Shown here piece after piece: positions 4,242 through 26,046 of a stretch of DNA of 64,000 nucleotides. The notes under the pieces were generated by a model. That model saw nothing but the letters and a program-made list of their open reading frames with translations, made no database searches and had not been told where the DNA came from. Both the position numbers and the translations under genes were made by a program. The first letter of the stretch is position 1; each line of letters opens with the position of its first letter. The DNA is from Lutimonas halocynthiae (GTDB lineage: Bacteria > Bacteroidota > Bacteroidia > Flavobacteriales > Flavobacteriaceae), in assembly GCF_030409835.1 (NCBI RefSeq), contig NZ_JAUFQO010000016.1:966263-1030262 (forward strand), in the 5' to 3' direction.

Positions 4242-4296
4242 GTATCTATCTCATTTAAACTAAGGATTAATAAAACCCCTCTGTTTTAATTATTTG

Positions 4297-4304: not shown

Positions 4305-4349
4305 GAAAAAATTGCAATGTAAAACTTTCTATGTTTATAGTTTTTAACA

Positions 4350-4394: not shown

Positions 4395-4412
4395 TTTATT
4401 GGCTTTATCCAC

Positions 4413-5450: not shown

Positions 5451-5482
5451 AAAAATACAATGCTTTGATTATAAAAACCGGG

Positions 5483-5490
5483 CAAATTTA
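5483..5490 (-). promoter_or_regulatory. -7 box TAAATTTG of the cysteine synthase-like gene
   Basis: The minus strand carries TAAATTTG, a match to the phylum -7 consensus, about 33 bases before the start codon at 5450. Confidence 0.5.
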
Positions 5491-5574
5491 AGTATTTTTT
5501 TTTTAACTATAACTGATCATCTAAATAAGAATGTAATCAGCGTATTAGGCATCACAATAAAATAAAATATATTA

Positions 5575-7665: not shown

Positions 7666-7819
7666 TTCTTTTTCATCGGCAAGTGCAAAAGTAATAGATA
7701 ATATTATGTTAATAACATTTTATTTATCTCATTATCAATAATGGGTATTGCTTAAATTCTTAAATTAGCTATCCTCGTGAAGAACGAAAACAATTAATTA
7801 ATCGAAAAAATATAAGATC

Positions 7820-8143
7820 ATGTTTGGAGATATGCAAGGAATGATGGCCAAGTTACAAGAAGCTCAAGCCAAGATAGAAGAAACTAAGAATCGTTTAAAT
7901 ACCGTAATGGTAGATGGCGACGCCGGGAATGGAATGGTCGTCGTAACAGTAACTGCGAATAGAGAAGTGAAGAATATCGCTATAGACGATCAGTTGCTTG
8001 AAGACAAAGAAGCTTTAGAAGATTATATGATCCTTGCACTCAATAATGCAATTGATAAAGCCAATAAAATTAATGAAACTGAAATGGCCGCTGCTGCCAA
8101 AGGAGGTATGCCAGACATTCCAGGAATGGATTTATTCAAATAG
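7820..8143 (+). CDS. ybaB: YbaB/EbfC family nucleoid-associated protein
   Basis: This 107-residue protein opens with '[26 protein letters not shown]', a coiled helix, and contains the conserved '[26 protein letters not shown]' beta-sheet. YbaB/EbfC proteins form dimers that bind DNA without strict sequence specificity and affect nucleoid organisation. In many bacteria the gene sits by dnaX-recR; that neighbourhood is absent here. Length fits the family (100-110). It is transcribed away from the oligopeptidase gene, and its stop lies 5 bases from the end of the convergent YhhN gene. Confidence 0.95.
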
Positions 8144-8148
8144 TCTGG

Positions 8149-8835
8149 TTAAGTTACTCCGTCTTTATCCAGAACTTTTGATTCAGAACCCAGCATATAA
8201 CTTGCTATAAGATACTGGGCAGCAATATAGGTCAACATGATTGTAACAGGATAAAATGATTGCTCTTCGTGAAATTTATTCAATGCGATCATACTATCTG
8301 ACAGGATAAACAATAAAGCACCCTGTAAAAGGGTCATGCTTAATTTGTTTTTAACTGCCAAATAATTCAATAAGGCAATCGTCCCAAAAATCGAAATAGC
8401 CATTCCATAAACCATCACCGGAATGAGTAAGTCATTCAGATTAGGTGACAAAATCGAAATTAAAACGCTATAAAATAAAAGAAAAGGCAGTATTGATGCC
8501 AATTTTTTCTGTCGAGATACTTTAGCTAAGCCCTTTGAAAAAATAAAAATATAGATTACTTGTGTGATCAGAAAAGCGGCTATTCCGAAAATAAATAAGT
8601 TGATCTTATCAAGTAACAGCACATCTCCTATAAAAGAAAAAAACAACGCTATAACATACCATTTGTTAATAGCATCTGTCTTGATCAGATACCAAGCTAT
8701 CAAACTCGGAATAATCATGGGCTTACAGACTGTTTGCAAGAATGGGTTTTCCATAAAAATACCCACAACATCTAACAATGAAACCAATATGAAAAATAAA
8801 AATACAGGTTTGGAAAATCTCTTATAACGCATCAT
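8149..8835 (-). CDS. YhhN (TMEM86) family membrane protein, lysoplasmalogenase-like
   Basis: The 228-residue product is almost entirely hydrophobic with about eight predicted membrane helices. It keeps family features such as 'KPMIIPSLIAWYLI' near the N-terminus, 'FFSFIGDVLLL' and 'GALLFILSDSMIALNKF'. Human TMEM86B of this family hydrolyses the vinyl-ether bond of lysoplasmalogens; the bacterial role is largely unproven. The start codon lies three bases after the stop of the 12-haem cytochrome gene on the same strand, so the two are probably co-transcribed, although no functional link is obvious. Confidence 0.85.
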   Translation of the reverse strand: MMRYKRFSKPVFLFFILVSLLDVVGIFMENPFLQTVCKPMIIPSLIAWYLIKTDAINKWYVIALFFSFIGDVLLLDKINLFIFGIAAFLITQVIYIFIFSKGLAKVSRQKKLASILPFLLFYSVLISILSPNLNDLLIPVMVYGMAISIFGTIALLNYLAVKNKLSMTLLQGALLFILSDSMIALNKFHEEQSFYPVTIMLTYIAAQYLIASYMLGSESKVLDKDGVT

Positions 8836-8838
8836 ATA

Positions 8839-10725
8839 CTAATAATCTGGTAGCAGACATTTGTCTGACAATTTCAAAAGTAACGGATTTAATCCAGTTT
8901 TTAGAGATTCAGTCATGATTTTAGAATCTTTCGAATGACATTGTAAACAAGCTCCCACAGTCAAGACTTTTTGCTGTTCAGCTACACTCAATGGTCTAAA
9001 GTCACTGCGTGTAGATAGTTTTTTGGAACTCGGTTCAGTCAAAAATGGAATCCAGGCATCTTCAGGCAAACCATCTATTGGATTTACTGAATAGATTGGT
9101 TCAAAGTTCCAGGTTGCAGACTTGCCATTTACTTCATAGCGTAGCTTGCCTTTACCATAACCCAGAGATGCAGGATCAAGGTGACAAGATTCGCATGACC
9201 TGGCTTCTTTTGCCGTAGTATGTGGTGCATTAGCTGCGTATAATCTTTCAAAAACAGGCTCATTTGATGATGAAGCCTCATGAGCAGATTTATCGATAGA
9301 TAAAATCATTCCTGGTATAGCTGGTTCTACTATTCTTCCTTCCTCAGTTATCCGCACTCCCATAGCCGGAAGACCCGTTTCAAATTCAAAAACATGTTCT
9401 ATCCAGGTTCCTTCAATCAATTTCTTTTCTAATAGATCATATCCTTGTTTATCATTATCGTAGGTATTGTGACAGCCAATGCATCTGGGAGCCCATTGTG
9501 AATGGCAGGAGGAGCAACTTAAAGATTGATGCGCTTCATCTCTGGCACAGATATCACTTTGTTTCTTTATCAAATGTTCTTTCCCATCCTTTTTACCTAT
9601 CAGATACGCCTCACCTCTGTCATTAATAAAAGTATTTACAAGCGGATGACCATCTTCGGCTACTTTCAACATTTCCTTTTCCTGATGCTGGTAATTTCGG
9701 TGCATAAAAACCAAGGAAGATTCGATATCTAAATCATCGTAAGCTACTGTCAGTGGCTCCTCCTTATAGTGACAATCAGAACAACTTAGTTTTACGGCAT
9801 CCTCTTCATGTAAATAATCCTTCCCATCCCCCATCACTTCATGAGAACTGTGACAATCTATACATAACAGGCCTTTTGAATGGTGTACATCAGCTCCTTT
9901 GAACTCATATATTCTTTCATCTTCAAATTGCTTATAGTTTTCTGATGCTGGTAGTTCATCCAATAATGTTTCATGCCACCCCATATAATTGGTAGATATC
10001 CTGCTTGACCGGCTATGACAACCAAAACAATGTGTGTCACTCATAAAAACATCCGTTGAAGGATGCATTTGAGCCAATTTTGTTTTTCCTGAAACAAGGT
10101 AGTCATCGAGCTGATTTGACGCCTCCTCGGAATAGTTCAAATGACAAGCATTACAACCTCCTCCTCTACTCAACTGAGAAATGGCACCCAGCTCAGTTTT
10201 TTCGGCACCTAAATGACAATTTGCACATAGATCACGAAGGTGATCATCCGCAGGGCTATGACCCAAATCACGAATATCAAAATGATGATCTGGCGAATCA
10301 CTCTCGCCAAAAATATATTTATCAACGGCCACCAAACCGCTATTGGTTGTCATCAATGAGTGTTGAATTTTCTCTAATTCTTGTTTGTGACAGGTGCCGC
10401 AGGTAAATTCTGCGTCACTTAAATTTCCTGGGATAACAACCATATCTTGATGTGACAAATCTTTGTCTGAACTAGCCGGATTGCCTAAATGACAAACCAC
10501 ACAACCAAGAAGCTTAGGGTCGTGAAAAGATGAAAATCCAGTCATCTCCACATGGCATTCAGTACATGATTCTTTTGAAACCTCAATAGTTGCATATGCT
10601 TCTGAATCCATTAAACCCTGTTGATCATTTTGAAAAAACTTCAACCCAAACCAAACACCAGCAATCAGCACCAATGCCAAAAAGAGCCAGATACTTCTCA
10701 ATTGATTTTTTTTGATTGAGGTCAT
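8839..10725 (-). CDS. Membrane-anchored dodecahaem cytochrome c
   Basis: The 628-residue protein has an N-terminal membrane helix (about 11-30) and then twelve CxxCH haem-binding motifs: CTECH, CVVCH, CGTCH, CANCH, CNACH, CFGCH, CIDCH, CSDCH, CSSCH, CIGCH, CESCH and CLQCH. The first is at residues 54-58. It should sit in the periplasm attached to the inner membrane and pass electrons between the quinone pool or a periplasmic oxidoreductase and another partner. I do not recognise a characterised family; it is not obviously NrfA, Otr (octahaem tetrathionate reductase) or the Sir/MccA sulfite reductase. It diverges from the psrA-like gene across a shared 198-bp regulatory region, which argues for a role in the same respiratory system. 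Confidence 0.9.
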   Translation of the reverse strand: MTSIKKNQLRSIWLFLALVLIAGVWFGLKFFQNDQQGLMDSEAYATIEVSKESCTECHVEMTGFSSFHDPKLLGCVVCHLGNPASSDKDLSHQDMVVIPGNLSDAEFTCGTCHKQELEKIQHSLMTTNSGLVAVDKYIFGESDSPDHHFDIRDLGHSPADDHLRDLCANCHLGAEKTELGAISQLSRGGGCNACHLNYSEEASNQLDDYLVSGKTKLAQMHPSTDVFMSDTHCFGCHSRSSRISTNYMGWHETLLDELPASENYKQFEDERIYEFKGADVHHSKGLLCIDCHSSHEVMGDGKDYLHEEDAVKLSCSDCHYKEEPLTVAYDDLDIESSLVFMHRNYQHQEKEMLKVAEDGHPLVNTFINDRGEAYLIGKKDGKEHLIKKQSDICARDEAHQSLSCSSCHSQWAPRCIGCHNTYDNDKQGYDLLEKKLIEGTWIEHVFEFETGLPAMGVRITEEGRIVEPAIPGMILSIDKSAHEASSSNEPVFERLYAANAPHTTAKEARSCESCHLDPASLGYGKGKLRYEVNGKSATWNFEPIYSVNPIDGLPEDAWIPFLTEPSSKKLSTRSDFRPLSVAEQQKVLTVGACLQCHSKDSKIMTESLKTGLNPLLLKLSDKCLLPDY

Positions 10726-10923: not shown

Positions 10924-13164
10924 ATGGTTAATTCAAGAAGGTCATTTATCAAGATATCCGCAATGGGTGCCAGTGGAATTGCTATTAGTACTTCTGCTCT
11001 AGGCGCCATACCTTCAGATCTGACTTCTAACAAGAAAGGTGTTGCAACAGCGGCAACGCTAAAACGATCTGCAACCTATTGCGAGGTTTGTTTCTGGAAA
11101 TGTGCAGCTTGGGCCTATTCAGATGAAAACAATAACATTCAAAAAATTATAGGGAATGATAATGATCCTCACTGTTATGGACGTCTTTGCCCCAGAGGAA
11201 CCGGAGGTATTGGAATGTACAGCGATACGGATCGCTTAAAAAAACCTTTAATCAGAACTCAAATTAACGGCGAAGATACTTTTAGAGAAGCATCTTGGGA
11301 AGAAGCACTTGATCTTGTCGCTAAAAACATGCGACAAATTAAAGATACTTACGGGTCGGAGTCAATGGCCTTAATAAAACATGGTTCTCCGGGTAGTCAT
11401 CTGGAACATCTTTTTAAAGCCTTTGGATCTGATACCATTGCTGAACCAGCCTATGCACAATGCCGTGGCCCCAGAGAAACCGGCTTCGGTTTAACATTTG
11501 GATCGTGGGTCGGATCACCTGAACCCACTGATATTAGAGACACCAAATGTCTGGTTTTGATCGGTTCGCATATCGGTGAAAACATGCATAATAGTCAGGT
11601 ACAAGAAATGTCTGATGCGATTGACAATGGGGCAAATATTATAACTGTTGACCCAAGATGTTCAACAGCAGCGAGTAAATCACAACATTGGCTCGCCATA
11701 AAGCCTGCTACTGATATTGCATTATTACTATCATGGATGCATGTTTTGATTTATGAAGATATTTATAATAAAGAATATGTTGAGCAACATGGTCATGGTT
11801 TCGAGGCCTTGAAGAAACATGTAAAACCTTTTACGCCTGAATGGGCTTATGGTATTACAACCATTAAACCAGAAGAAATCAGAAAAACAGCCAGAGTAAT
11901 GGCTGCTGCAGCTCCAGCTGCAATTATACATCCCGGAAGACATGTAACATGGTATGGTGATGATGCGCAAAGAGAGCGCGCAATTGCCATGCTCAATGGG
12001 CTTTTAGGTTCTTGGGGAAATCGTGGAGGCTTTTATTTTAAAGAAAAAATTAAAGTGCCTAAATATCCACATCCTGCTTATCCACATCCAAAATGGGGAT
12101 GGAAGGAACTGGGCAAAAAATATCCTTTTGCAGAAATGGGGAATACAATGGAAGTAATCAAAGCCTCAATTCCTGAAAACAACCCAAAATATCCTATCAA
12201 GGGCTGGTTTGTAGCAGGTACTAACTTAGTTACTTCAGTACCACAGCGTGCCATGATTGAAAAAGCAATAGAATCCCTTGATTTCATGGTCGTTATGGAT
12301 ACCATGCCAATGGAAATAACCGGCTACGCAGATGTCATTTTACCAGAATGCACCTATTTAGAAAGATATGACGGAATCAGATCTGCAACTAACAGAGAAC
12401 CTTCTATTGCGCTGAGATGCCCGGCTGTTCCTCCAAAATACGATTCCAAACCTGCCTGGTGGATGGCTAAAGAAATCGGAACGCGACTTGACCTCCAAGC
12501 CTACTTTGATTATAATGATTTTGAAGAAGTTATTGCATGGCAATTAAATGAAATGGGCAGTTCATTGGAAGAAATGAAAAAAATTGGTGTAAAGAACTTT
12601 AAAAGAAAATCAGGGTCTCTCTACATGGAAAAAGGCAAAGCACATGAATTCGCTACCACAAGCGGGAAAATTGAATTTTATTCAGAAGATCTGGCAGAAC
12701 TTGGGCTCGATCCCATGCCTGTTTATACATCACATGAAAGTCCGGATCAAGGCTTCTACAGACTCAACTATGGAAGATCTCCAATGCACACTTTCAGCAG
12801 GACGATCAACAATCCTAACCTGAGTGACCTGACTGATGAAAATACGCTTTGGGTAAATCCAAAAGTCGCCAGAATTGAAGACTTAAAAAATGGCCAATAC
12901 GTTTGGCTCGAAAATCAAGATGGAATTATTTCAAGTTTTTCAATTAAAGTAAGGGTTACAGAAAGAATCAGATGGGATTCTGTTTACATGTATCACGGAT
13001 TTGGACATAATAATAAAAAACTGAGCCGAGCTCATGGAAAAGGAGCTAGTGACACTGAGTTGATCAGTAGAATAAAAGTTGATCCTCTAATGGGTGGTAC
13101 CGGAATGAGGGGAAACTTTGTGAAAATATTAATCGAGAACCCAACTAAAGAGGTATTGTTATGA
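10924..13164 (+). CDS. psrA: Molybdopterin oxidoreductase catalytic subunit, polysulfide/thiosulfate reductase-like (PsrA/PhsA)
   Basis: This 746-residue protein starts with a Tat signal ('NSRRSFIK' then a hydrophobic stretch), so it is exported folded to the periplasm. Cys53, Cys56, Cys60 and Cys89 form the N-terminal [4Fe-4S] site; Cys180 in 'YAQCRGPRETGFG' is the probable Mo-bisMGD ligand, as in PsrA/PhsA. The C-terminal molybdopterin dinucleotide-binding domain begins near 600. Length agrees with PsrA and PhsA (about 750-760) and is far below tetrathionate reductase TtrA (about 1,000). Substrate could be polysulfide, thiosulfate or another sulfur or arsenic oxyanion, in either direction. 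It overlaps the ferredoxin subunit gene by 4 bases. No dedicated TorD/NarJ-type chaperone gene is present nearby. Confidence 0.9.
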   Translation: MVNSRRSFIKISAMGASGIAISTSALGAIPSDLTSNKKGVATAATLKRSATYCEVCFWKCAAWAYSDENNNIQKIIGNDNDPHCYGRLCPRGTGGIGMYSDTDRLKKPLIRTQINGEDTFREASWEEALDLVAKNMRQIKDTYGSESMALIKHGSPGSHLEHLFKAFGSDTIAEPAYAQCRGPRETGFGLTFGSWVGSPEPTDIRDTKCLVLIGSHIGENMHNSQVQEMSDAIDNGANIITVDPRCSTAASKSQHWLAIKPATDIALLLSWMHVLIYEDIYNKEYVEQHGHGFEALKKHVKPFTPEWAYGITTIKPEEIRKTARVMAAAAPAAIIHPGRHVTWYGDDAQRERAIAMLNGLLGSWGNRGGFYFKEKIKVPKYPHPAYPHPKWGWKELGKKYPFAEMGNTMEVIKASIPENNPKYPIKGWFVAGTNLVTSVPQRAMIEKAIESLDFMVVMDTMPMEITGYADVILPECTYLERYDGIRSATNREPSIALRCPAVPPKYDSKPAWWMAKEIGTRLDLQAYFDYNDFEEVIAWQLNEMGSSLEEMKKIGVKNFKRKSGSLYMEKGKAHEFATTSGKIEFYSEDLAELGLDPMPVYTSHESPDQGFYRLNYGRSPMHTFSRTINNPNLSDLTDENTLWVNPKVARIEDLKNGQYVWLENQDGIISSFSIKVRVTERIRWDSVYMYHGFGHNNKKLSRAHGKGASDTELISRIKVDPLMGGTGMRGNFVKILIENPTKEVLL

Positions 13165-13694
13165 AATATGCGATGGTCATTGACACATTAAAATGTGTAG
13201 GATGTAGTGACTGTGTGGTTGCCTGTCAAACTGAGAATAGTGTACCCATTGGTTATTGTAGAGACTGGGTTACAGAATCAGTAAATGGTGCCTACCCACA
13301 TGTCGAGATTGAATTGAAGTCTGAACGGTGTAACCAATGTGATAATGCTCCTTGTGTGCGTTGTTGCCCAACTGGAGCCAGTCATAAGGCTGAAGGTGGA
13401 ATTGTATTGGTCACTGCTGACGAATGTATCGGTTGTGGAGCATGCATTGCCTCATGCCCTTATGATGCAAGATATCAACACCCTGATGGATATGTTGACA
13501 AATGTACTTTTTGTGCGCATCGATTGAAAAAGGGTCAATTGCCAGCTTGTGTTTCTGTATGCCCTACCAAATGCATGTATTTTGGAGACATTGATGACCC
13601 AACAAGTAAGGTATCCCATTTACTTGCTTCCAGAAAGTTTAAGGTCTTGGCACCCGAAGCCGGAACCAAGCCTAATGTTTACTATCTAATTTAA
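13161..13694 (+). CDS. psrB: Four-cluster ferredoxin electron-transfer subunit (PsrB-like)
   Basis: The 177-residue protein carries cysteine ligands for four [4Fe-4S] clusters: 'CVGCSDCVVAC', 'CNQCDNAPCVRCCP', 'CIGCGACIASCP' and 'CTFCAHR...ACVSVCP'. It belongs to the DMSO/polysulfide reductase iron-sulfur subunit family and passes electrons between the molybdenum subunit and the membrane subunit. It has no signal peptide, as usual; it is carried out with the Tat-exported catalytic subunit. It overlaps psrA by ATGA and lies 11 bp before the membrane subunit gene. Confidence 0.95.
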   Translation: MKYAMVIDTLKCVGCSDCVVACQTENSVPIGYCRDWVTESVNGAYPHVEIELKSERCNQCDNAPCVRCCPTGASHKAEGGIVLVTADECIGCGACIASCPYDARYQHPDGYVDKCTFCAHRLKKGQLPACVSVCPTKCMYFGDIDDPTSKVSHLLASRKFKVLAPEAGTKPNVYYLI

Positions 13695-13705
13695 TCTGAA
13701 TCATC

Positions 13706-14647
13706 ATGCAAGAAGAAATATTTATCAGCGGAAGAAATATCCCAAAAATCGATCCAAATCTCGAAGTATGGCATTTCCCGATATCACTTTATCTTTTTTT
13801 AGGAGGAATGGCGGCAGGAATCATATTCTTTGCCACTTTGTTCACTATACTAAAACGTGAAAAACAAGTGCAAACTGCCATCAAACCAGCGATGATTATC
13901 GTGCTTTTTGCTTTGAGTATTGGCTTATTAGCCTTGTTCTATGATCTTACTCATAAGCTTTATGTATGGCGTTTGTACACAACTATCAGACTAGAATCTC
14001 CCATGTCATGGGGAGCCTGGGTTTTGCTCTTAGTCACGATTGGGTCATTCTTATGGGTTTTTAGTTATTTTTCAGAAATCTTCCCTAAGTGGGACCTTAA
14101 AATAAAAGCGTTAAAAAATCTGGAAGGCTTTCTTATTAAGAATCGAAGAAATCTAGCGATCATATTATTGCCACTATCTCTAATCCTTGGTATCTATACC
14201 GGAATCCTTTTATCTGCATTCAATGCAAGGCCCCTTTGGAATAATGCCATTTTAGGTCCGTTATTTTTAATATCAGGGCTGTCTACAGGAGCCGCCTGCA
14301 TCATACTATTTTCAAAGGATCACCTAGAGCGCAAGCTCTTCAGTCAGATTGACCTTGCATTGATTTTTATAGAATTAGCATTGATTGTTCACATGATTAT
14401 GGGAATGTACGCAGGATCTGCTGTCCAACTTGAGGCACTTGACATATTGATCGGAGGAGACTATACCGTTATGTTCTTTGTTTTTGTGATCATACTCGGC
14501 TTGATATTTCCTGCAATCCTGGAAGGGATAGAGCTCCTTGGTTATAAGGTCCCTGTAATTATTCCGGCGGTTCTAATCTTGATAGGTGGACTCGTTTTTA
14601 GAATGGTCATGGTTGAAGCCGGGCAATTAACCAGATACTTATATTGA
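13706..14647 (+). CDS. psrC: NrfD/PsrC-type quinone-interacting membrane subunit
   Basis: The 313-residue product is an integral membrane protein with about eight or nine helices, starting with 'EVWHFPISLYLFLGGMAAGIIFFATLF', which matches the first helix of NrfD/PsrC proteins, where 'W..P...Y.F.GG.A.G' is conserved. It anchors the complex and exchanges electrons with the quinone pool. Following the PsrA- and PsrB-like genes, it completes a three-subunit periplasm-facing complex. Four bases separate it from the next gene. Confidence 0.92.
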   Translation: MQEEIFISGRNIPKIDPNLEVWHFPISLYLFLGGMAAGIIFFATLFTILKREKQVQTAIKPAMIIVLFALSIGLLALFYDLTHKLYVWRLYTTIRLESPMSWGAWVLLLVTIGSFLWVFSYFSEIFPKWDLKIKALKNLEGFLIKNRRNLAIILLPLSLILGIYTGILLSAFNARPLWNNAILGPLFLISGLSTGAACIILFSKDHLERKLFSQIDLALIFIELALIVHMIMGMYAGSAVQLEALDILIGGDYTVMFFVFVIILGLIFPAILEGIELLGYKVPVIIPAVLILIGGLVFRMVMVEAGQLTRYLY

Positions 14648-14651
14648 TACT

Positions 14652-15182
14652 ATGGAAAAGACAAATCAAAAAAATCGACACGTATATTGGAATCCATATT
14701 TTGGTGGATTTCTTCTCGGATTATTAATCATTTTCACCTTTTATATCACAGGAAGGGGTCTTGGAGCAAGTGGCGCTGTTAAAAGTGGTGTGGTCACAGT
14801 AGTGAATAAGGTTTCACCTGAACACACCGAAAACAATGCCTATTATAAAAAATTCATCGATGGTGAAAGTTCACCTATGAATAACTGGCTGGTTTTTGAA
14901 GCTCTTGGAGTTATCATGGGTGCCTTCCTATCAGGAGCTATGACCGGACGTGTCAAACTGAAAATTCAGCATTCTCCTAAAATCACAGGAAAAAGAAGGT
15001 TGGTCTTTGCCCTTATTGGGGGGCTCCTTTTTGGCTTTGGTGCACAAATAGCAAGAGGCTGTACAAGTGGCGCTGCCTTAAGTGGTATCTCGGTATTGGC
15101 TACCGCCGGATTTATTAGCATGATGGCCATATTTGGGACAGGTTATTTAGTAGCCTACTTTTTTAGAAAAAACTGGATTTAA
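14652..15182 (+). CDS. YeeE/YedE-family sulfur transport protein (first half-size unit)
   Basis: The 176-residue membrane protein has an N-terminal helix, a periplasmic segment with 'GESSPMNNWLVFEALGVIMGAFLSG', and the family signature 'LLFGFGAQIARGCTSGAALSG' with a cysteine in the membrane region. YeeE/YedE (TsuA) proteins take up thiosulfate through a chain of conserved cysteines; half-size versions (PmpA/PmpB) are known in sulfur-oxidising and sulfur-respiring bacteria. Here it sits between psrC-like and a second half-size unit, so the pair may form one transporter for a substrate or product of the Psr complex. Substrate is inferred from the family. Confidence 0.85.
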   Translation: MEKTNQKNRHVYWNPYFGGFLLGLLIIFTFYITGRGLGASGAVKSGVVTVVNKVSPEHTENNAYYKKFIDGESSPMNNWLVFEALGVIMGAFLSGAMTGRVKLKIQHSPKITGKRRLVFALIGGLLFGFGAQIARGCTSGAALSGISVLATAGFISMMAIFGTGYLVAYFFRKNWI

Positions 15183-15200: not shown

Positions 15201-15791
15201 ATGGGACCTATTATTCCAAATGAATTAATACCTGCAGAATGGAATTTTGTTTTTGCCATTCTGATCGGAATTGCTTTCGGATTTATAATGGAAGCATCTG
15301 GATTTTCTTCTTCCAGAAAACTTGTCGGCGTTTTTTACGGTTATGATTTTGCTGTATTGAAAGTTTTCTTAACAGCTACAATCGTTGCTGTAATTGGTCT
15401 TCATTATTTGGATTATCTAAACTGGATCAATATGGATCAACTCTTTGTACAACCTACTTATTTATGGGCGGCATTAGTTGGTGGATTTATTATGGGTGTT
15501 GGCTTTCTTGCCGGTGGATTTTGCCCGGGCACAAGTCTATGCGCCGTTGGTATTGGGAAAATCGACGGCATCGTTTTTACAGTGGGATTATTTATAGGTA
15601 TCCTTATTTTTTCGGAGTCCTTTTTATGGCTACAGCCTCTTTATGAAAATTCCTTTCTGGGTCATATAACACTAGACGAAACCTTAAACATTTCTCCCTA
15701 CCTCATCATTTTCATATTCACACTCATTGCCCTATTGGCTTTTTTTATATCCGATATGGTCAGAAAACGAGTAAAGAAAGTCTTTTACTAA
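15201..15791 (+). CDS. YeeE/YedE-family sulfur transport protein (second half-size unit)
   Basis: The 196-residue protein has about five membrane helices, with 'FGFIMEASGFSSSRKLVGVFYGYDF' near the N-terminus and the signature 'GFLAGGFCPGTSLCAVGIGKIDG', which holds two cysteines in the conserved loop. It complements the preceding half-size unit, and the pair together has the size of one full TsuA-type carrier. The operon spacing (18 bp before it, 13 bp after it) supports co-expression with the Psr complex and the following rhodanese-fold genes. Confidence 0.88.
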   Translation: MGPIIPNELIPAEWNFVFAILIGIAFGFIMEASGFSSSRKLVGVFYGYDFAVLKVFLTATIVAVIGLHYLDYLNWINMDQLFVQPTYLWAALVGGFIMGVGFLAGGFCPGTSLCAVGIGKIDGIVFTVGLFIGILIFSESFLWLQPLYENSFLGHITLDETLNISPYLIIFIFTLIALLAFFISDMVRKRVKKVFY

Positions 15792-15804: not shown

Positions 15805-16470
15805 ATGTCTGCTACATATACCACAAAGAAAATACTCGTAAAAAGAAGTTATCAAATACTTGCTTTGATTCTTATCGCTTTAGCCGCTGGCTTACTTTTG
15901 ATTCCAAAGCATCCAAAGCATGAAGGTATTTCACCTGAGCTTTTTGCGAAAAACATCCTCAGTACCGAAAGATATATTACTTCTGACCAACTGGCTGACA
16001 GAATTATCAATCAAGATCCAACGCTGTTATTAATCGATACGAGATTATTAGAAGCGTATCAAAGTTTTAGTTTACCTAATGCTATTCATATTCCATTATC
16101 TGAAATATTCAGTGAAGAGTTGAACCCTTATCTCGACCAAAACATCTATGACATTATATTGTTTTCAAATGATAATTTCAACGCCGAACAGGCCTGGATG
16201 CTATGTAATCGAATGGATTACCAAAGGCTTTATATACTAGATGGAGGTCTTAACACCTGGTTTAGCACTATAATCGAACCTATACCACCCAAAGAAACGA
16301 TGTCACAAGAGGCATTTGAACTATACTCTTTTAGAAGGGCTGCTGGTAAATATTTTGGTGTTGCAAATGACACTGTAGAAGTTGAAGTAAAACCTGTGAG
16401 AAAGGCGGCTCCCAAAAAGGTGGTTACCAAACCTAAGAAAAAGAAAAGAGTACCTGAAGGTGGATGTTAA
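15805..16470 (+). CDS. Membrane-anchored rhodanese-fold protein with PEGGC tail, active-site Cys absent
   Basis: The 221-residue protein has a basic N-terminus, one membrane helix (about 18-33), a rhodanese-like domain (about 58-155) and a Lys/Pro/Val-rich linker (about 195-215) ending in RVPEGGC with Cys221 as last residue. The fold is recognisable from 'LLLIDTRLLEAYQSFSLPNAIHIPLSEI' and 'YILDGGLNTW'. The active loop that should contain the persulfide cysteine reads 'FSNDNFN' (120-126), so the canonical Cys is gone; only Cys134 and Cys221 remain. With N-terminus inside, the domain faces the periplasm. The flexible tail with a terminal Cys looks like a sulfur-carrying arm, by analogy with DsrC; this is inference. 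It is followed by a paralogue with the same tail. Confidence 0.85.
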   Translation: MSATYTTKKILVKRSYQILALILIALAAGLLLIPKHPKHEGISPELFAKNILSTERYITSDQLADRIINQDPTLLLIDTRLLEAYQSFSLPNAIHIPLSEIFSEELNPYLDQNIYDIILFSNDNFNAEQAWMLCNRMDYQRLYILDGGLNTWFSTIIEPIPPKETMSQEAFELYSFRRAAGKYFGVANDTVEVEVKPVRKAAPKKVVTKPKKKKRVPEGGC

Positions 16471-16509
16471 CCTCAGACTGATTCAATACAAAACAATTAA
16501 TTTAAAATT

Positions 16510-17133
16510 ATGAAAGAGTTAGAAAAAACAAAAAGAATCTCCATATCAGCTGTACTTTTTCTATTAGTTGTGGTCATAAGTCTATTGACATTTCGAAAAC
16601 CACAATATAGCTTCACAAATAACACGGCCAAAACCCTTGAATTTATTAGTAATAAGTCATACATCTTATCAATATCTGAATTCGAACAAATCAAAGATCA
16701 AGCATCTGTTATTATTGATGTTCGTAGTAATTTTGACTTTTCCAAAGGACATATTGAGAAGGCCATAAATATTCCTTTAAGTCAGCTACTTGATAAAAGC
16801 TCAATTGACTTACTCACAGGGTCCAGCTCGCAAAATCCAGCCATTTTATATGGTAAAACTCCTGAAGAGGCCAATGCTGCCTTTATGCTATTATACCAAT
16901 TGGGTAATGAAGATATTAAGGTATTGAGTGTAGCTACTTACTATGATGACAAACAATTTCATGTCAAGAATATAGAAATTGGAAAGGCCAAAGTAAATTA
17001 TGCTACTACTATGGAAAAAGCAATGATTCAACCTGTAAAAAAAGTTGTCGTTAAACCAGCTCCAAAACCGGTAAAGAAAAAGGTAGTAGTTCAACCAAAA
17101 AAGAAAAAGAAAATGCCCGAAGGAGGTTGTTAA
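16510..17133 (+). CDS. Second membrane-anchored rhodanese-fold protein with PEGGC tail
   Basis: The 207-residue protein repeats the plan of its neighbour: basic N-terminus, membrane helix (about 11-27), rhodanese-like domain (about 54-145, with 'SVIIDVRSNFDFSKGHIEKAINIPLSQL'), then a Lys/Pro/Val-rich linker ending in KMPEGGC. The active loop reads 'LYGKTPEEAN' (113-122) and has no cysteine; the only cysteine in the protein is the last residue, Cys207. The domain and linker have diverged strongly from the first copy while the last five residues are identical, implying selection on the tail. It ends the psr operon, 52 bases before a terminator. Confidence 0.85.
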   Translation: MKELEKTKRISISAVLFLLVVVISLLTFRKPQYSFTNNTAKTLEFISNKSYILSISEFEQIKDQASVIIDVRSNFDFSKGHIEKAINIPLSQLLDKSSIDLLTGSSSQNPAILYGKTPEEANAAFMLLYQLGNEDIKVLSVATYYDDKQFHVKNIEIGKAKVNYATTMEKAMIQPVKKVVVKPAPKPVKKKVVVQPKKKKKMPEGGC

Positions 17134-17185: not shown

Positions 17186-17220
17186 AAAAGTCCTTCGCCT
17201 TAACGAAGGACTTTTTCTTT
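17186..17220 (+). terminator. Intrinsic terminator of the psr operon
   Basis: The arms AAAAGTCCTTCG and CGAAGGACTTTTT pair with a 6-base loop (CCTTAA) and are followed by CTTT-rich sequence, 52 bases after the last stop codon of the operon. Confidence 0.9.
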
Positions 17221-17587: not shown

Positions 17588-18589
17588 ATGAGAAAACTAT
17601 CATTAATTCTCGTATTATTATTACTGCCTGCCACACTATTGGTAAGTAGTTTTAAAGCACCAAGTGCAAATCTAAATAACAATATTGATCCTCCAAATGA
17701 ATTTGAAACCCTCTTGAGTTTCCTTGAAACCAACAGAGATTTCATCAACACCGATGCAGCTCCTGCCTTGATTCCTGCAGATGAGGTTAAAAAGAACCTC
17801 AAGAATCCGAAATATCATATAATTGATATTCGAAGCGCAACCTGGTTTGAATATGGTCACATCAAAAATGCTGTGAACGTTCAACCCTCGGATCTTTTAA
17901 ATCATTTTGAAAATAGTATTTCACCCTCCGAGTATGACAAGATCATTTTGATCTGTTATTCAGGGCAGTCTGCTGCATATTTCACCGGTCTTTTGCGCAT
18001 TGCTGGTTATGATAATACGCATAGCATGAATTGGGGAATGAGTTCATGGAGAGTTGATTTTGCCGAGAATTCTTGGCTTAAGAATACTTCCGATGATTTC
18101 GCTGCAAAATTAGAAACTACAACGCATGAAAAAGGAGCTAAAGGTTCTGCTCCTGAAGTTGCTACTGGTAAATCTGATGGCGAAGCCATTTTAAGAGCAA
18201 GATTAGAAAAGGCATTTGCTACACCTTATAAAGAATCTATCGTAAAATCTGCTTTGGCATTTGAGAATCCAAATGACTATTACATCATAGACTATAATGG
18301 TTCTGATCGTTATGCCAAAGGACATATTCCTCAAGCTGTTCAATATGACCCAAATGGATCCTTAAGTTCTACTGCTGATCTATTTACACTTCCTACAGAT
18401 AAAACAATTCTTGTTTATGGCCCAACAGGTCAAGAAACCGCCTACGTAGTAGCTTACTTAAATGTTCTTGGTTACAAAACCGGCAATTTAGCCTATGGAG
18501 GTAACAGTTTTATGCACAAAAATCTAAAAGAAAATAACTGGGAGGCCTTTTCTAAAAAAGAGGTTAACATGTTTCCGGTTATCGAATAA
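17588..18589 (+). CDS. Secreted tandem rhodanese protein, one active and one inactive domain
   Basis: The 333-residue protein begins with a Sec signal peptide (about 1-22). The first rhodanese domain (about 65-150) has an intact active loop 'CYSGQSA' with Cys123, preceded by 'YHIIDIRSATWFEYGHIKNAVNV'. The second domain (about 235-320) has 'YIIDYNGSDRYAKGHIPQAVQY', but the loop reads 'YGPTGQETA' without cysteine, as in thiosulfate sulfurtransferases whose other domain has lost its Cys. Rhodaneses move sulfane sulfur from thiosulfate or polysulfide to a thiol acceptor. It should act in the periplasm or, because it lacks a lipobox, possibly outside the cell. It is first in an operon with a similar lipoprotein and a porin. 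Confidence 0.9.
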   Translation: MRKLSLILVLLLLPATLLVSSFKAPSANLNNNIDPPNEFETLLSFLETNRDFINTDAAPALIPADEVKKNLKNPKYHIIDIRSATWFEYGHIKNAVNVQPSDLLNHFENSISPSEYDKIILICYSGQSAAYFTGLLRIAGYDNTHSMNWGMSSWRVDFAENSWLKNTSDDFAAKLETTTHEKGAKGSAPEVATGKSDGEAILRARLEKAFATPYKESIVKSALAFENPNDYYIIDYNGSDRYAKGHIPQAVQYDPNGSLSSTADLFTLPTDKTILVYGPTGQETAYVVAYLNVLGYKTGNLAYGGNSFMHKNLKENNWEAFSKKEVNMFPVIE

Positions 18590-18625: not shown

Positions 18626-19642
18626 ATGAAAAAAATAAATCTATTCGTACTAGCATTATTATGCGTTCCAGTGTTGCTACTTAGTTCATGTGACAGAGGA
18701 GATGAAATCAGTCCAGAAAATCCAATTCTTAAACCTGCGTTTGAAGTAATGAAGGATCATATGATGGATAATGATCTTGATTTAAACAACATTCTAAGCG
18801 GACCGGGAGGAGAAGTTAAATTTGTGGCCGGAGCTCCTGCAGCAGCAGATCTGGATGCATTTTTGAATAAATACAGTATTCTTGATATCAGAACTCTCGA
18901 AGCATTCAATACAAGTCATATTCAGGGAGCTAAAAACATAGCCTTTGCCGATATACTTAAAGAAGCAGATGCTGCAAGCAAACAAGTCTTAGTAGTTTGC
19001 TATACAGGTCAAACAGCTTGTTATGGCGCATCTCTTTTACGCCTTGCCGGACACAGTAATGCCCAAGCACTTAAATGGGGTATGTCTGGGTGGAATTCTG
19101 AAACAGCTGGTTCATGGAATAACAATACAGGAGATGAAGCAAAAGGTCATGGTAATTGGGCCGCAAATAAAGCGCCAGACGACCTGACTTTTGATGACCC
19201 TGTATTTGACCTTTATTCTACAGATGGTGCAGAAATTTTAAGACAAAGAGTTGAAGCTGTAATAGAAGCAGGTTTTAAAACTGCCAAAGGAACAGATGTT
19301 TTAAACAGCCCTGAAAATTACTTCATCAACAACTACTTTGGAGATACAGACTACGGAAATTTTGGTCATTTAAAAGATGCTTTTCGCGTCAAGGAAGTTT
19401 TATTACTTGAGGGCAATGGTTACAAAGGTCTGGATTCAGATTCGAATGCCAAAGTGATTACTTACTGTTATACTGGTCAAACCTCAGCTGTTATAACAGC
19501 CTGGTTACAAGTTCTTGGGTATGATGCTTATAGTATGACATTTGGGATGAATGGAATCTACCATTCTAACCCAGCTTGGAGCTCAAATCAATGGGGTGTT
19601 GGCTCATCCGTTCCTAAAGAATTACCGTTGATCAAAAATTAA
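18626..19642 (+). CDS. Tandem rhodanese lipoprotein with two intact active sites
   Basis: This 338-residue protein has a lipoprotein signal ending in LSSC (Cys22), so it is tethered to a membrane, probably the outer membrane. The first rhodanese domain carries 'CYTGQTAC' (Cys125, with Cys132 seven residues on), the second 'CYTGQTSA' (Cys281). Both domains thus keep the persulfide cysteine, unlike the preceding paralogue. A Trp-rich stretch, 'KWGMSGWN', follows domain one; a related 'TFGMNGIY' follows domain two. It probably accepts and donates sulfane sulfur in the periplasm. Transcribed with the preceding rhodanese (36 bp gap) and the following porin (17 bp gap). Confidence 0.9.
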   Translation: MKKINLFVLALLCVPVLLLSSCDRGDEISPENPILKPAFEVMKDHMMDNDLDLNNILSGPGGEVKFVAGAPAAADLDAFLNKYSILDIRTLEAFNTSHIQGAKNIAFADILKEADAASKQVLVVCYTGQTACYGASLLRLAGHSNAQALKWGMSGWNSETAGSWNNNTGDEAKGHGNWAANKAPDDLTFDDPVFDLYSTDGAEILRQRVEAVIEAGFKTAKGTDVLNSPENYFINNYFGDTDYGNFGHLKDAFRVKEVLLLEGNGYKGLDSDSNAKVITYCYTGQTSAVITAWLQVLGYDAYSMTFGMNGIYHSNPAWSSNQWGVGSSVPKELPLIKN

Positions 19643-19659: not shown

Positions 19660-20706
19660 ATGAAAAATATTATTTCGATATCTATCGTACTGATGATTAG
19701 TATGTTCATTAGTCAAATACAGGCGCAAGGTTGCGACGCCGAGGACCCTACTGACAGCATTGCTCCTGCTAAAATCAAACTATTTGGTTTTATCCAACCT
19801 GAATATAATTATACTTTTTCTGACCCTGCTGAAAGCACTTTTAAATTTAGAAGAGCGAGAATTGGAGTTAGAGGCCGTCTCTTTGAAGATTGGAGCTATT
19901 ATTTTATGCTAGAAACCAGTCCTTTTATAGGTGGTGTTGGAAGTGCTTACCTCATGGATGCCTTTGTAACCTGGGATAAATATAACTGGGCTAGACTTTC
20001 TGTTGGATCGTATAAACAGCCTTTCGGACGTGAAGTTCAGACCGCGTGTAATGCATTAATCACTATTGATCGGGCTATCGTTTCAGATCAGTTAGTAGTC
20101 CCTCAAAGAGATTATGGTATTTCAATTTGGGGTGGAAATGTAAACACCAGACTGAATTATGCGTTTGCGATCATGAATGGTAGTGGCTTAAATAAAGTCG
20201 ATAACAACAATAAAAAAGATGTTGTTGGACGCGTCACCTATAAAGTGTTTGATTTCATGACCATTGGAGGTAGTTTTAGATATGGTTATCCGAAGTTAAA
20301 TAATGATGAAGACAGCCGAACTACCTATGGTGGTGAGATTTTATTTGACATCAATAACCTTCATATCCAAGGAGAATATATTCATGACGAAGGAGCATAT
20401 GATCCAGGTGCAGATACCGGTTGTGGATCTGAACCACTTGCCCTTGGAGAGGAAAGAGATGGAGCCTATGGTATGATCTGGTATGACACTAAATGGAATC
20501 TTCAACCTGTATTCAAATATGAATTTTTTGATCAAGACCTTGATCTAAAAGATGTACCATATAGATACAGCGAAAGAATGACAATTGGTCTTAATTATTA
20601 TTTCAATAAAGCGATACGCTTACAAGTGAACTATCAAGCCAACATTGAAACCGTAATCAATGAGGATAACGATAAATTCCTGGCACAAATTCAAGTAGTT
20701 TTCTAA
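19660..20706 (+). CDS. Outer-membrane porin, phosphate-selective porin O/P-like
   Basis: The 348-residue protein has a Sec signal (cleavage near 'IQAQG') and alternating hydrophobic/polar beta-strand text such as 'KIKLFGFIQPEYNYTF', 'KFRRARIGVRGRLFEDWSYYFMLE' and a C-terminal strand ending in Phe. This matches Bacteroidota porins of the OprO/OprP superfamily. Its position as last gene of the rhodanese operon and behind a sulfur-type promoter suggests it admits an anionic sulfur compound such as thiosulfate or tetrathionate; that substrate is inferred, not visible. Confidence 0.85.
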   Translation: MKNIISISIVLMISMFISQIQAQGCDAEDPTDSIAPAKIKLFGFIQPEYNYTFSDPAESTFKFRRARIGVRGRLFEDWSYYFMLETSPFIGGVGSAYLMDAFVTWDKYNWARLSVGSYKQPFGREVQTACNALITIDRAIVSDQLVVPQRDYGISIWGGNVNTRLNYAFAIMNGSGLNKVDNNNKKDVVGRVTYKVFDFMTIGGSFRYGYPKLNNDEDSRTTYGGEILFDINNLHIQGEYIHDEGAYDPGADTGCGSEPLALGEERDGAYGMIWYDTKWNLQPVFKYEFFDQDLDLKDVPYRYSERMTIGLNYYFNKAIRLQVNYQANIETVINEDNDKFLAQIQVVF

Positions 20707-23741: not shown

Positions 23742-24974
23742 ATGAAGAAGTTAGTGATTTTAGGTGCCGGAACAGCTGGAACAATGATGTTAAACAAATT
23801 GCATCACGAACTTGAAAAAGACGAATGGGAAATCACAATCGTTGATCAATATAAAACACATTATTACCAACCTGGATTCTTGTTTATTCCTTTTGGAATT
23901 TACGGTAAAAAAGATGTAATCAAACCAAAATATGATTTCTTCCCTCCAGGAGCAAATGTGATTTTTAGCCCTATTGATAAGATCGTGGGTGAAGAGAACA
24001 AAGTACTTCTTGAAGGTGGCAGGGTATTGAATTATGACTTTTTGATCATTGCCACAGGAACAGAAACAAGACCGTCAGAAACCGAAGGCTTAACAGGAGA
24101 ATTATGGTATAAGGATATCTTTGATTTTTATACGGTAGAAGGCGCTGTAGCACTTCATAAGCGTTTTAAAGACTGGGAAGGTGGTAAATTGGTTATGTGT
24201 ATTCCGGAATTGCCATATAAATGCCCGGTAGCTCCAATAGAGTTTGTATGTCTTGCTGAAGCATATTTTGCTGAAAGAGGGATGCGAGATAAAGTTGATA
24301 TCTCTTATGTTACGTTGATGTCAGGTGCTTTCACAAAGCCAGTGGCCTCTAAGGTACTTGGTGATCTTTTAGAAGAAAAAAATATCGATGTTGTTGCTGA
24401 TTTCTATTTGAGTCATGTTGATAATGAAAATAAAAAACTGATTTCTTATGATGATCGTGAAGTGGAATTCGACATCTTAACTATCGTTCCTGTCAATATG
24501 GGATCAGATATGATCGAGCGAAGTGGTCTGGGTGATGACATGAATTATGTACCCACTGACAAGCATACGTTGCAGTCTAAACAATTCGAGAACATTTTTG
24601 TGATTGGTGATGCAGCAAACCTTCCAACATCAAAAGCTGGATCTGTGGCGCATTTTGCCGCTGAAATCCTAATGGAAAATATTCTTGCAGCAATGGAAGG
24701 AAGAGCTCTTCCTGCAAAATTTGACGGTCACGCCAATTGTTATATTGAAACGGGTTACGGTAAAGGTGCCTTAATCGATTTTAATTATGAAACAGAACCA
24801 TTACCAGGAACTTTTCCATTACCAGGTATCGGGCCATTTGGTCTATTAAAAAATACGAAAATGAATCATTATGGTAAAATTCTTTTCAGATGGATCTATT
24901 GGCATATCCTACTTAAAGGAAGAGAATTACCTATCGAGGCTGATATGACCATGGCAGGAAAAAAGAGAATTTAA
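23742..24974 (+). CDS. sqr: Sulfide:quinone oxidoreductase-like flavoprotein
   Basis: The 410-residue FAD protein has the dinucleotide fold 'VILGAGTAGTMM', the ATG-type motif 'LIIATGTE', and the second FAD site 'VIGDAANLPTSKAG' (287-300). Cysteines at 153, 161 ('YKCPVAP'), 170 and 333 include the two expected redox cysteines of the SQR family (161 and 333); the third cysteine found near residue 125-130 in classical SQR is missing. The C-terminal 'GKILFRWIYWHILLKG' is an amphipathic segment for membrane attachment. SQR oxidises sulfide to polysulfide or persulfide and reduces quinone. It leads an operon with DUF1641, TusE-like and DsrE-like genes, which supports sulfur chemistry. A related flavoprotein activity cannot be excluded. 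Confidence 0.87.
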   Translation: MKKLVILGAGTAGTMMLNKLHHELEKDEWEITIVDQYKTHYYQPGFLFIPFGIYGKKDVIKPKYDFFPPGANVIFSPIDKIVGEENKVLLEGGRVLNYDFLIIATGTETRPSETEGLTGELWYKDIFDFYTVEGAVALHKRFKDWEGGKLVMCIPELPYKCPVAPIEFVCLAEAYFAERGMRDKVDISYVTLMSGAFTKPVASKVLGDLLEEKNIDVVADFYLSHVDNENKKLISYDDREVEFDILTIVPVNMGSDMIERSGLGDDMNYVPTDKHTLQSKQFENIFVIGDAANLPTSKAGSVAHFAAEILMENILAAMEGRALPAKFDGHANCYIETGYGKGALIDFNYETEPLPGTFPLPGIGPFGLLKNTKMNHYGKILFRWIYWHILLKGRELPIEADMTMAGKKRI

Positions 24975-24992
24975 CCTCAATAAAGACTAGTG

Positions 24993-25670
24993 ATGGAAGA
25001 TAAGAATATACAAATACAAATTGATGCACTGGACAAAAAGCTGGATCTGATCCTGGGGTATGTACATCAACAAAAACTACAGGCCAACATGGTTGAAGAC
25101 CTTGTAGGGGATCTTAGTATCATTGGGAAGGATGCCTATGATTCTACAGTACTAGAGCTCGACAAAAGACAGGTTGAACTTGATCCATCCGAATTAACCG
25201 GATTAGCCGTTTCATTTTTGAGAAATATCGGAAATATCAAAACCGTAATGGATACACTTGAAATGGCCGTTGATCTTGGTAAAGAAGTTGGACCAATCGC
25301 TAATGAAGTGATCTTGGACTTTACAAAACAAATGCATTCATTAGAACAAAAAGGCTATTTCGACTTTATTAGAGAAATAGGACCGGTTATTGACAATGTT
25401 GTTAAAGGCTTTAGCCCTCAGGATATTAAGGAATTATCAAATAGTATTGTTTCTATCCTGTCAATTGTTAAAGAAATGACACAGCCAGAGGTACTCAGTA
25501 CCATGCAAAATGCAATTAAGGCGTTTAATAGTATGGAAACAGAAAGTGTACCTTCTTACTCTGTATGGAAATTAATGAGAGAAATGAATAGCCCGGAAAT
25601 GAAAAAAGCATTGGGTTATGGTATTACCTTTATGAAAAATGTCTCTAAAGATGTTCATATCGAAAAATAA
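24993..25670 (+). CDS. DUF1641 family protein
   Basis: The 225-residue helical protein has no signal peptide and no cysteine. It contains the family-type segment 'LTGLAVSFLRNIGNIKTVMDTLEMAVDLGKEVGPIANEVI' and predicted coiled stretches near the N-terminus ('IDALDKKLDLILGYVHQQKL'). DUF1641 proteins frequently accompany SQR-like flavoproteins, DsrE-type proteins and formate dehydrogenase-like systems, but no biochemical role is established. The ATG at 24993 follows a GTG codon. It probably acts as a cytoplasmic partner of the SQR-like protein. Confidence 0.82.
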   Translation: MEDKNIQIQIDALDKKLDLILGYVHQQKLQANMVEDLVGDLSIIGKDAYDSTVLELDKRQVELDPSELTGLAVSFLRNIGNIKTVMDTLEMAVDLGKEVGPIANEVILDFTKQMHSLEQKGYFDFIREIGPVIDNVVKGFSPQDIKELSNSIVSILSIVKEMTQPEVLSTMQNAIKAFNSMETESVPSYSVWKLMREMNSPEMKKALGYGITFMKNVSKDVHIEK

Positions 25671-25700
25671 ATAAACAATTAATAACTAAAAAATAATATT

Positions 25701-26012
25701 ATGGCTTTACAAACAATCGCAGGAGCACAAGTAAATGTATCTGAAGATGGATACCTTGAAAACATGAATGAATGGAACGAAGGCATCGCTAATGAAATAG
25801 CGGGTGAAATTGGAATTGAATTAACTGAAAAACATTTTGAAGTTCTAAACTACCTAAGAGAAAAAACTGAAGCTGGTGAAGCACTTAGCATAAGAAAAGT
25901 AGGTAAATCAGGCATTACTGACATCAAGGGTTTATATAAATTATTTCCTAAGGGACCTTTAAAATACTCAGCAAGGATTGCAGGAATTCCAAAACCAGCT
26001 AGTTGTGTTTAA
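25701..26012 (+). CDS. tusE: TusE/DsrC-family sulfur carrier with a single C-terminal cysteine
   Basis: The 103-residue protein ends in 'GLYKLFPKGPLKYSARIAG' followed by IPKPASCV, the DsrC/TusE C-terminal arm. Only the penultimate cysteine (Cys102) is kept; the second cysteine of true DsrC, eleven residues earlier, is Ala91. This is the TusE-type arrangement, able to carry a persulfide but not to form the DsrC internal trisulfide. TusE accepts sulfur from TusBCD (DsrEFH-like) in tRNA thiolation; here the adjacent DsrE-like and SQR-like genes suggest a dissimilatory or sulfide-detoxifying use. There is no other cysteine in the protein. Confidence 0.92.
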   Translation: MALQTIAGAQVNVSEDGYLENMNEWNEGIANEIAGEIGIELTEKHFEVLNYLREKTEAGEALSIRKVGKSGITDIKGLYKLFPKGPLKYSARIAGIPKPASCV

Positions 26013-26046
26013 TATTTCATTTCAAGGATAACAAAAATTTAGAATT

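Follow-up and report, generated by a model that had tools for sequence, protein, structure and literature searches.

The window examined here, 64,000 nucleotides of Lutimonas halocynthiae DNA forming part of a contig in a 3.99 Mb genome and supplying all coordinates below unless another locus is named, contains two adjacent genes, rhd1 and rhd2, whose products are rather probably periplasm-facing carriers of sulfane sulfur, with a C-terminal cysteine arm passing sulfur between Psr or rhodaneses and a YeeE channel. Both genes encode rhodanese-fold proteins that lack the cysteine of the catalytic loop and carry one at the end of a long C-terminal arm, and both stand in an operon with psrABC and two half-length YeeE genes. 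Some marine and sediment bacteria make proteins tailed in this way, which probably act as a previously undescribed type of sulfur courier. The rhodanese fold, the arm principle, Psr, and YeeE are already known; new are the joining of a cysteine-less rhodanese to a putative carrier tail, its operon context, and the matching of tails within a genome, for which searches of open PMC full texts, some of them aimed at this question, yielded no description, most subscription papers falling outside that collection.

Loss of the loop cysteine and conservation of the tail cysteine

The proteins encoded by rhd1 (15805-16470, 221 amino acids) and rhd2 (16510-17133, 207 amino acids), both on the forward strand, were characterized by Pfam, homologue alignment, and AlphaFold2 (AF2) models. 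Both match PF00581 (Rhodanese), at 5.5e-12 (46.5 bits) and 5.9e-11 (43.2 bits), respectively, with a cut-off of 22.2, and in both models the helix and the rhodanese fold are confidently predicted, with a mean predicted local distance difference test (pLDDT) of 88 and 87. The top Foldseek matches in the PDB are rhodanese-domain proteins, the first being EanB for rhd2 and 3tp9 for rhd1, and the rhd1 profile matches PDB 1qxn ('sulfide dehydrogenase', E 1.1e-4), which we take to be Sud. Profile and fold place both proteins in the rhodanese superfamily, and the loop cysteine of active sulfurtransferases is absent: the catalytic loops read FSNDNFN in rhd1 and LYGKTPEE in rhd2, with Ser121 (16165-16167) and Gly115 (16852-16854) aligned to the catalytic position. 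Each protein begins with a helix presumed to be a membrane anchor, spanning residues 3-31 in rhd1 (15811-15897; model m10e9a08b9a51, hydrophobicity by eye) and residues 2-27 in rhd2 (16513-16590; model ma9c9090616f4). The linkers, modeled as low-confidence coil, are basic and presumably flexible in rhd1 (residues 186-216, 16360-16452) and Lys/Pro/Val-rich in rhd2 (residues 175-202, 17032-17115), and lead to the PEGGC ends (16453-16467 and 17116-17130), with the codons of Cys221 and Cys207 at 16465-16467 and 17128-17130. These coordinates, profile matches, and loops bear out a preliminary description of this DNA, which had reported two adjacent anchored rhodanese-fold genes without a loop cysteine; its statement that the terminal cysteine is the only one in the 207 residues of rhd2 also holds, and rhd1 has one more, Cys134 (16204-16206). 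The same helix position holds a non-tail cysteine in 39 of 91 rhd1 proteins.

The anchor, the lipobox-bearing relatives, and the gene neighbourhood suggest that both proteins face the periplasm. A lipobox-like start is present in 6 of 66 rhd2 homologues, and with such a start the rhodanese domain would lie outside.

The comparison covers 91 rhd1 loci, consisting of the window, 10 loci from further genomes, and the best 80 of 209 relatives in a genome collection, these 80 being nearly all titled Bacteroidota, with one Chlorobiota and one Desulfobulbaceae. The nearest named rhd1 relatives are Flavobacteriaceae such as Lutimonas, and named isolates among the relatives include Lutibacter, Lutimonas, Polaribacter, and Maribacter species. 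As rhd2 was counted the neighbouring rhodanese open reading frame (ORF) no more than 900 bases downstream, a few of which score higher with the rhd1 model. One rhd1 cut by a contig end (L163) was dropped before counting, giving 90 complete rhd1 proteins; two cut rhd2 proteins (L137 and L189) count among the 71 loops though not among the 69 complete proteins. Two duplicates, L158 (identical in contig to L115) and L121 (almost a copy of L122), were retained in the loop counts and the 90 complete rhd1. The catalytic position was located from an alignment, a comparison by eye with the active neighbour dRhdA, and its situation between strand and helix in the model.

Cysteine is absent from this position in all rhd1 (0/91) and all rhd2 (0/71). 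It is replaced in rhd1 by Ser (88), Gly (2), or Ala (1), and in rhd2 by Gly (54), Ala (10), Ser (3), Asn (2), Asp (1), or His (1), with a cysteine elsewhere in the loop of three rhd1 and two rhd2 proteins. A tail cysteine lies within the last two residues of 89 of the 90 complete rhd1 (77 final, 12 penultimate) and 67 of the 69 complete rhd2 (59 final, 8 penultimate), so that free variation of the last residue, which the preliminary description had named as evidence against its own proposal, was not seen. The rhd1 proteins end in GGC (73), EGC (4), or GGC followed by one of D, G, S, or E (12), with one showing none of these. The identical PEGGC that the preliminary description had emphasized is true of the two proteins here and lineage-specific; homologues share Gly-Cys, usually as GGC, with the cysteine in the final or next-to-final position. 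Among 45 control rhodaneses, ordinary ones encountered in searches across the same order, none has a cysteine in the last three residues and 41 keep the CxxGx[RS] loop, and among other gene-sized ORFs of the related loci a cysteine in the last two residues occurs in 29 of 1188. The linker is conserved in length and free in sequence: mean column identity falls from 0.98 in GGC to 0.62 in the domain and 0.36 in the linker, while the distance from Arg177 to the tail cysteine in rhd1 is 40.3 ± 4.3 residues (35-57, n = 87), a stretch that is net positive in 96.5%. The loop and tail counts, the constant linker length, and the gene linkage described below partly support the earlier proposal that the rhodanese fold has become a scaffold and that the chemistry has moved to the arm; the persulfide which that proposal assigns to the arm would be a further, conditional step.

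A basic GGC end might also be a tag for sorting or processing, such as surface lipidation or covalent attachment there, and short C-terminal ends shared by a number of presumably exported proteins, with tails co-varying within a genome, would fit such a role. Against this, the 3.99 Mb genome has exactly two matches to the DNA pattern for PEGGC-stop, at rhd1 and rhd2, which sets the shared ending apart from chance, and the looser KK[KR]xxxGGC is likewise found in the Lutimonas genome on these two only; all 7 of the 1188 other ORFs that end in GC or GCx encode rhodanese proteins (six dRhdA by phmmer, one by Pfam). Inspection by eye revealed no hydrophobic segment next to the GGC motif, and both proteins are already anchored, leaving a tag very improbable.

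Linkage to psrABC and a split YeeE transporter

The operon runs on the forward strand in the order psrA, psrB, psrC, two half-length YeeE genes, rhd1, and rhd2, with intergenic gaps of -4 to 39 bases. The first gene (10924-13164) encodes a PsrA-type molybdopterin oxidoreductase with a twin-arginine-like signal (Pfam PF00384; RRSFIK motif by eye), whose best PDB match is 2vpw_A (E 4.7e-191), deposited as thiosulfate reductase, and which reaches 481 bits with the NCBIfam PhsA model, under its cut-off of 694. A PsrB-type 4Fe-4S subunit (13161-13694, PF13247) and a PsrC/NrfD membrane subunit (13706-14647, PF03916) follow, so that molybdopterin, Fe-S, and NrfD subunits stand in a single operon, as in PsrABC or PhsABC, with polysulfide or thiosulfate as the possible substrate. 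A rhodanese-fold protein linked to psrABC is also the arrangement of the Sud type. YeeEa (14652-15182; PF04143, profile 173-309) and YeeEb (15201-15791; PF04143, profile 10-149) are half-length proteins covering the C-terminal and N-terminal halves of a YeeE/TsuA-type transporter, as in the split YeeE of the PmpAB type. YeeEa Cys137 aligns with TsuA Cys293 (alignment to 8k1r) and is present in 88/88 homologues; YeeEb Cys108, present in 89/89 homologues, is judged by motif to correspond to TsuA Cys91, YeeEb being without a PDB sequence match. In the accessible part of a 2024 study, Cys91 and Cys293 are indispensable to TsuA, PmpA and PmpB are proposed to pair as a split YeeE, and sulfur entering by YeeE-like routes reaches the cytoplasm 'by unknown means' (PMC11582611).

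Downstream of rhd2 are a terminator-like stem (17186-17215, forward strand; 1 found against 0.2 expected), which probably closes the psrABC-yeeE-yeeE-rhd1-rhd2 unit, a 454-base gap, and then two double rhodaneses and a porin, all on the forward strand. dRhdA (17588-18589) has one loop cysteine (CYSGQS), and dRhdB (18626-19642) is of lipoprotein type, with two loop cysteines and no tail; each matches PF00581 in two stretches. The outer-membrane porin belongs to Porin_O_P (19660-20706, PF07396).

This arrangement is conserved: psrABC is present in 68 of the 69 loci whose upstream flank reaches 5.5 kb and the YeeE pair in 83 of the 84 with an upstream flank of 1.5 kb or more, L129 being the exception both times. 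Among 395 genomes of the class, the six with full-length rhd1 are also the six with YeeEb (E <= 1e-20), a co-occurrence the preliminary description had suggested searching for, and nine more of these genomes contain weaker partial rhodanese matches. Tailed homologues outside a sulfur neighbourhood, which would have spoken against its proposal, were seen at no locus where the flank sufficed, the flank being too short in some, such as L130. The linkage to PsrA and YeeE that it had put forward is thus retained, with YeeE now the likelier partner of the two on the evidence of L119, described below.

In the proposed mechanism, the N-terminal helix of each protein, or a lipid in some relatives, would tether it to the inner membrane, and the rhodanese domain, with Ser or Gly for a nucleophile, would serve as a docking platform without sulfurtransferase chemistry. 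A basic, disordered arm of about 40 residues would present its Gly-Gly-Cys thiol, load it with sulfane sulfur at PsrA or at an active double rhodanese of the periplasm, and unload at the mouth of the split YeeE channel, whose genes lie just upstream, or operate in the reverse direction. Persulfide loading, the carrier chemistry, the partner, and the direction of transfer are what we infer from this arrangement, which would combine known precedents, with the rhodanese fold as dock, the arm cysteine as carrier, YeeE at one end, and Psr or dRhd at the other. A single tail sequence per genome would reflect the same partner site reading all paralogues. The cytoplasmic side may run in the Lutimonas genome through SQR, DsrC, and DsrE2, a route proposed because TusA gave no match in the Lutimonas halocynthiae genome, with matches in 4 of 12 genomes and 11 of 14 controls. 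A membrane-tethered arm encoded beside the channel makes the YeeE sulfur-entry step directly testable, also in the named isolates.

Several points weigh against the carrier interpretation. The last 35-40 residues of rhd1 and rhd2 are given by AF2 as nothing beyond low-confidence coil, and the tail cysteine is missing from three complete homologues, rhd1 of L179 and rhd2 of L118 and L201; for L179, a GGC end was looked for in three frames past the stop and none was found. At L129 (1-10000), rhd1, rhd2, and YeeEb are present with no YeeEa or psrABC detected upstream, reflecting either assembly frameshifts or real loss. The choice of 80 among the 209 relatives followed their similarity to a tailed query, which may have left tail-less relatives under-represented, and some seeds, the three f93 operons L121-L123, were found through the tail pattern itself, so their tails are not independent evidence. 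As a separate observation, L179 (1-3420) is a 3.4 kb contig labelled Desulfobulbaceae, maybe misbinned or transferred.

Tail likeness within genomes and tails on other rhodaneses

Tails were compared in 66 genomes having both, a set that omits the duplicates L158 and L121, the two loci whose rhd2 has no tail (L118 and L201), and 20 loci without a detected rhd2 neighbour. Over the ten residues before the cysteine, rhd1 and rhd2 of one genome agree at 85% on average (complete identity in 34 genomes), compared with 30% (22-39%) for the domains, which are old paralogues, although low-complexity Lys runs inflate every tail identity, those between genomes included, and related genomes do not count as independent. 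The rhd1 tail shares 86% with its own partner and a mean of 66% with the rhd2 tails of relatives having at least 50% rhd1 domain identity, and none of 2000 random re-pairings reached the own-partner value (64 genomes with such relatives). For 48 genomes the own rhd2 tail is best or tied best among all 66, and at 60-70% domain identity orthologous rhd1 tails share 78%, against 94% for paralogues inside those genomes. In the tree, rhd1 and rhd2 lie on opposite sides of a 100/100 branch (bootstrap not fully settled), and recent duplication is therefore rejected as the cause of the likeness. Such matching may be a natural record of one partner site serving several carriers.

Gene conversion between the neighbouring genes would produce this likeness as a by-product that carries no information on a common partner, an account that concerns only the shared address and is compatible with a functional cysteine. 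At identical tail residues, rhd1 and rhd2 use different codons in 280 of 700 cases, below the approximately 338 expected if independent, and in 122 of 368, against 166 expected, within the 34 genomes with identical tails; L134 and L185 have nearly identical tail codons in rhd1 and rhd2, where gene conversion may have contributed. Yet codons differ at 40% of identical residues, and in the window, L164, and L186 the same tail residues are written with mostly different codons. Paralogue identity drops from 0.99 at the cysteine to 0.27 by 18-22 residues upstream and 0.10 by 28-35, the former fall being counted against conversion, and the near-invariance of GGC across loci while the linker diverges is left unexplained by conversion alone. 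Pure gene conversion is insufficient by the codons and does not explain the whole, and as the origin of the shared address it appears rather unlikely.

Tails are also found beyond rhd1 and rhd2, with a GC tail in 6 of 35 dRhdA and 0 of 25 dRhdB. All six tailed dRhdA (L062, L063, L145, L178, L185, and L193) have at least one catalytic-type loop cysteine, which the tailed single-domain proteins of L119, L191, and L213 also retain (loops by eye), and the tail is accordingly not bound to dead domains. L119, a 10 kb contig without psr genes, encodes at 4192-9703 TusA, a full-length YeeE, an active rhodanese ending TGGGCGG, a double rhodanese, a porin-like gene, and more, the porin-like gene being followed by another rhodanese and then by a rhodanese without loop cysteine ending SGGCGG; two rhodaneses of this genome (G463) thus end GGGCGG and SGGCGG. 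This second tailed system, a rhodanese behind TusA and YeeE with no psr genes on the contig, makes YeeE rather than Psr the likelier constant partner. L191 (12624-19874) and L218 (3827-6739) contain octahaem tetrathionate-reductase-family cytochromes and cytochrome b-like genes (by eye), and beside the octahaem cytochromes an active-loop lipoprotein rhodanese ending EVGGC, from which it follows that a tailed rhodanese need not directly adjoin YeeE. Relatives of the active L119 rhodanese in families f30 and f75 (4 genomes) showed no tail, and no sulfur genes were recognized around them by eye within approximately 3.4 kb.

The tail DNA pattern was rejected as a finder, since it matches 51 of 395 genomes of the phylum and a backward control pattern about 48, so that most matches are chance. 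Matches of KKKGVPGGC type occur in three f97 genomes, and in the one examined (L124) no tailed gene was among the ORFs listed. Two related observations concern other endings: at L120 (564-2313, genome G548) a second YeeE copy lies beside a divergent rhodanese-like protein ending RKGC, and the double rhodaneses of L171 (11168-12274), L173 (11255-12361), and L191 (11199-12305) end EVCD, with a penultimate cysteine and no GG.

The spread of tails bears on whether the tail cysteine is a structural tether, with tail disulfides linking rhd1, rhd2, and tailed double rhodaneses to one another or to a partner in a periplasmic complex around Psr and YeeE, and no sulfur carried. The periplasm is oxidizing, the tails match within a genome, and one cysteine per protein is found in 39 of 90 rhd1 and 38 of 69 rhd2, all of which a tether would accommodate. 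It gives no reason, however, for the loss of the loop cysteine, and the tail is present on the nine loci's rhodaneses named above that keep a catalytic-type loop cysteine; 20 of 91 loci have no detected rhd2 beside rhd1, some at contig ends, and flexible arms ending in GGC have a carrier precedent in SoxY. A tether is consequently judged improbable.

The octahaem neighbours of L191 and L218, together with a divergent multihaem c-type cytochrome gene upstream of psrA in the window (8839-10725, reverse strand; ExtM match 247 of 800 bits, below cut-off), could point to binding of a metal or haem iron by the tail cysteine, for example in cofactor or cytochrome handling for the neighbouring respiratory complex. 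Against this, the cysteine stands alone in a Gly-rich flexible setting, no conserved His or second Cys lies near it, a sulfur transporter adjoins, and the cytochrome gene has relatives in just 39 of 91 loci, some flanks being short; this role is considered highly improbable.

The carrier interpretation may extend further, in that a modular thiol arm read by YeeE could have been grafted onto several Bacteroidota rhodaneses (dead single, active lipoprotein, and double), providing a shared, co-changing address per genome along with the carrier cysteine, in an inner-membrane sulfane relay able to do without SoxYZ and TusA. This extension is tentative, a possibility to which we would give less than even weight; if true, it would answer how periplasmic sulfur is presented to YeeE-type transporters. 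The carrier interpretation itself would also illustrate a pseudoenzyme route to a carrier, in which the nucleophile is lost from the active site and turns up again on the tail, with living relatives that keep both.

Comparison with known carriers and further sulfur genes of the window

By analogy, the closest functional counterpart is the SoxY arm (GGCGG) and not DsrC. In the accessible parts of two sources, SoxY carries sulfur intermediates on the cysteine of a C-terminal GGCGG swinging arm (PMC6067878, PMC5336275); SoxY of SoxYZ thus resembles rhd1 and rhd2, as putative carriers, in being extracytoplasmic and in holding its cysteine in a Gly-rich C-terminal arm. The exact SoxY-like GGCGG end is found on the two L119 rhodaneses, with Gly-Cys in the last two to three residues of nearly all rhd1 and rhd2 homologues. 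Unlike SoxY, rhd1 and rhd2 have a rhodanese fold, a helix or lipid anchor, a Lys-rich arm of about 40 residues, and an operon of psrABC and yeeE rather than sox. Homology to SoxY was rejected, as the Pfam scan (E <= 0.01) listed only PF00581 and no match to the SoxY domain PF13501, the likeness being confined to the end motif. The SoxY family was found in 0 of 12 genomes, a count that is uninformative and does not show absence because the control genomes also gave no match.

DsrC and TusE are cytoplasmic sulfur carriers whose flexible C-terminal arm bears a cysteine in the final position or beside it. The preliminary description had offered them as precedent, which holds for the terminal or penultimate cysteine on a flexible arm (the flexibility in rhd1 and rhd2 being suggested by low AF2 confidence). 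It does not extend to ancestry: their fold is unrelated, and homology was rejected with no PF04358 match in the Pfam scan, SoxY remaining the better analogue.

Sud, the Wolinella polysulfide-sulfur transferase, uses the cysteine of its rhodanese loop. It shares with rhd1 and rhd2 a psrABC-linked rhodanese fold, consistent with the match of 1qxn to the rhd1 profile, and according to the accessible part of one source presents polysulfide to PsrABC in the periplasm (PMC2628731). Unlike Sud, rhd1 and rhd2 have Ser or Gly in the loop and the cysteine on the tail, with the YeeE linkage as an addition. Among the YeeE/TsuA, SoxT, and split PmpAB transporters, the upstream pair YeeEa and YeeEb corresponds to the two halves of YeeE, with cysteine residues kept, and the partners discussed for YeeE-type proteins in the accessible part of the same study as above are TusA/TsuB, SoxS, DsbA, and SoxYZ, with no rhodanese-fold arm described there (PMC11582611). 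The YTD cluster of sulfur disproportionators, comprising yedE, tusA, dsrE, and conserved hypotheticals in the accessible parts of two accounts, resembles the rhd locus in joining YedE/YeeE to small sulfur-transfer proteins (PMC12998232, PMC13047784); it differs in that the Lutimonas genome gave no TusA match and that those parts name no rhodanese arm.

A second sulfur cluster in the window (23742-26550, forward strand) encodes an FCSD/SQR-like flavoprotein, a DUF1641 protein, DsrC, and DsrE2. The DsrC gene (25701-26012; PF04358, 9.6e-27) has a product ending in CV. Relatives of SQR, DsrC, and DsrE2 were detected by phmmer in 19, 17, and 14 of the 91 loci, respectively, within the available flank.

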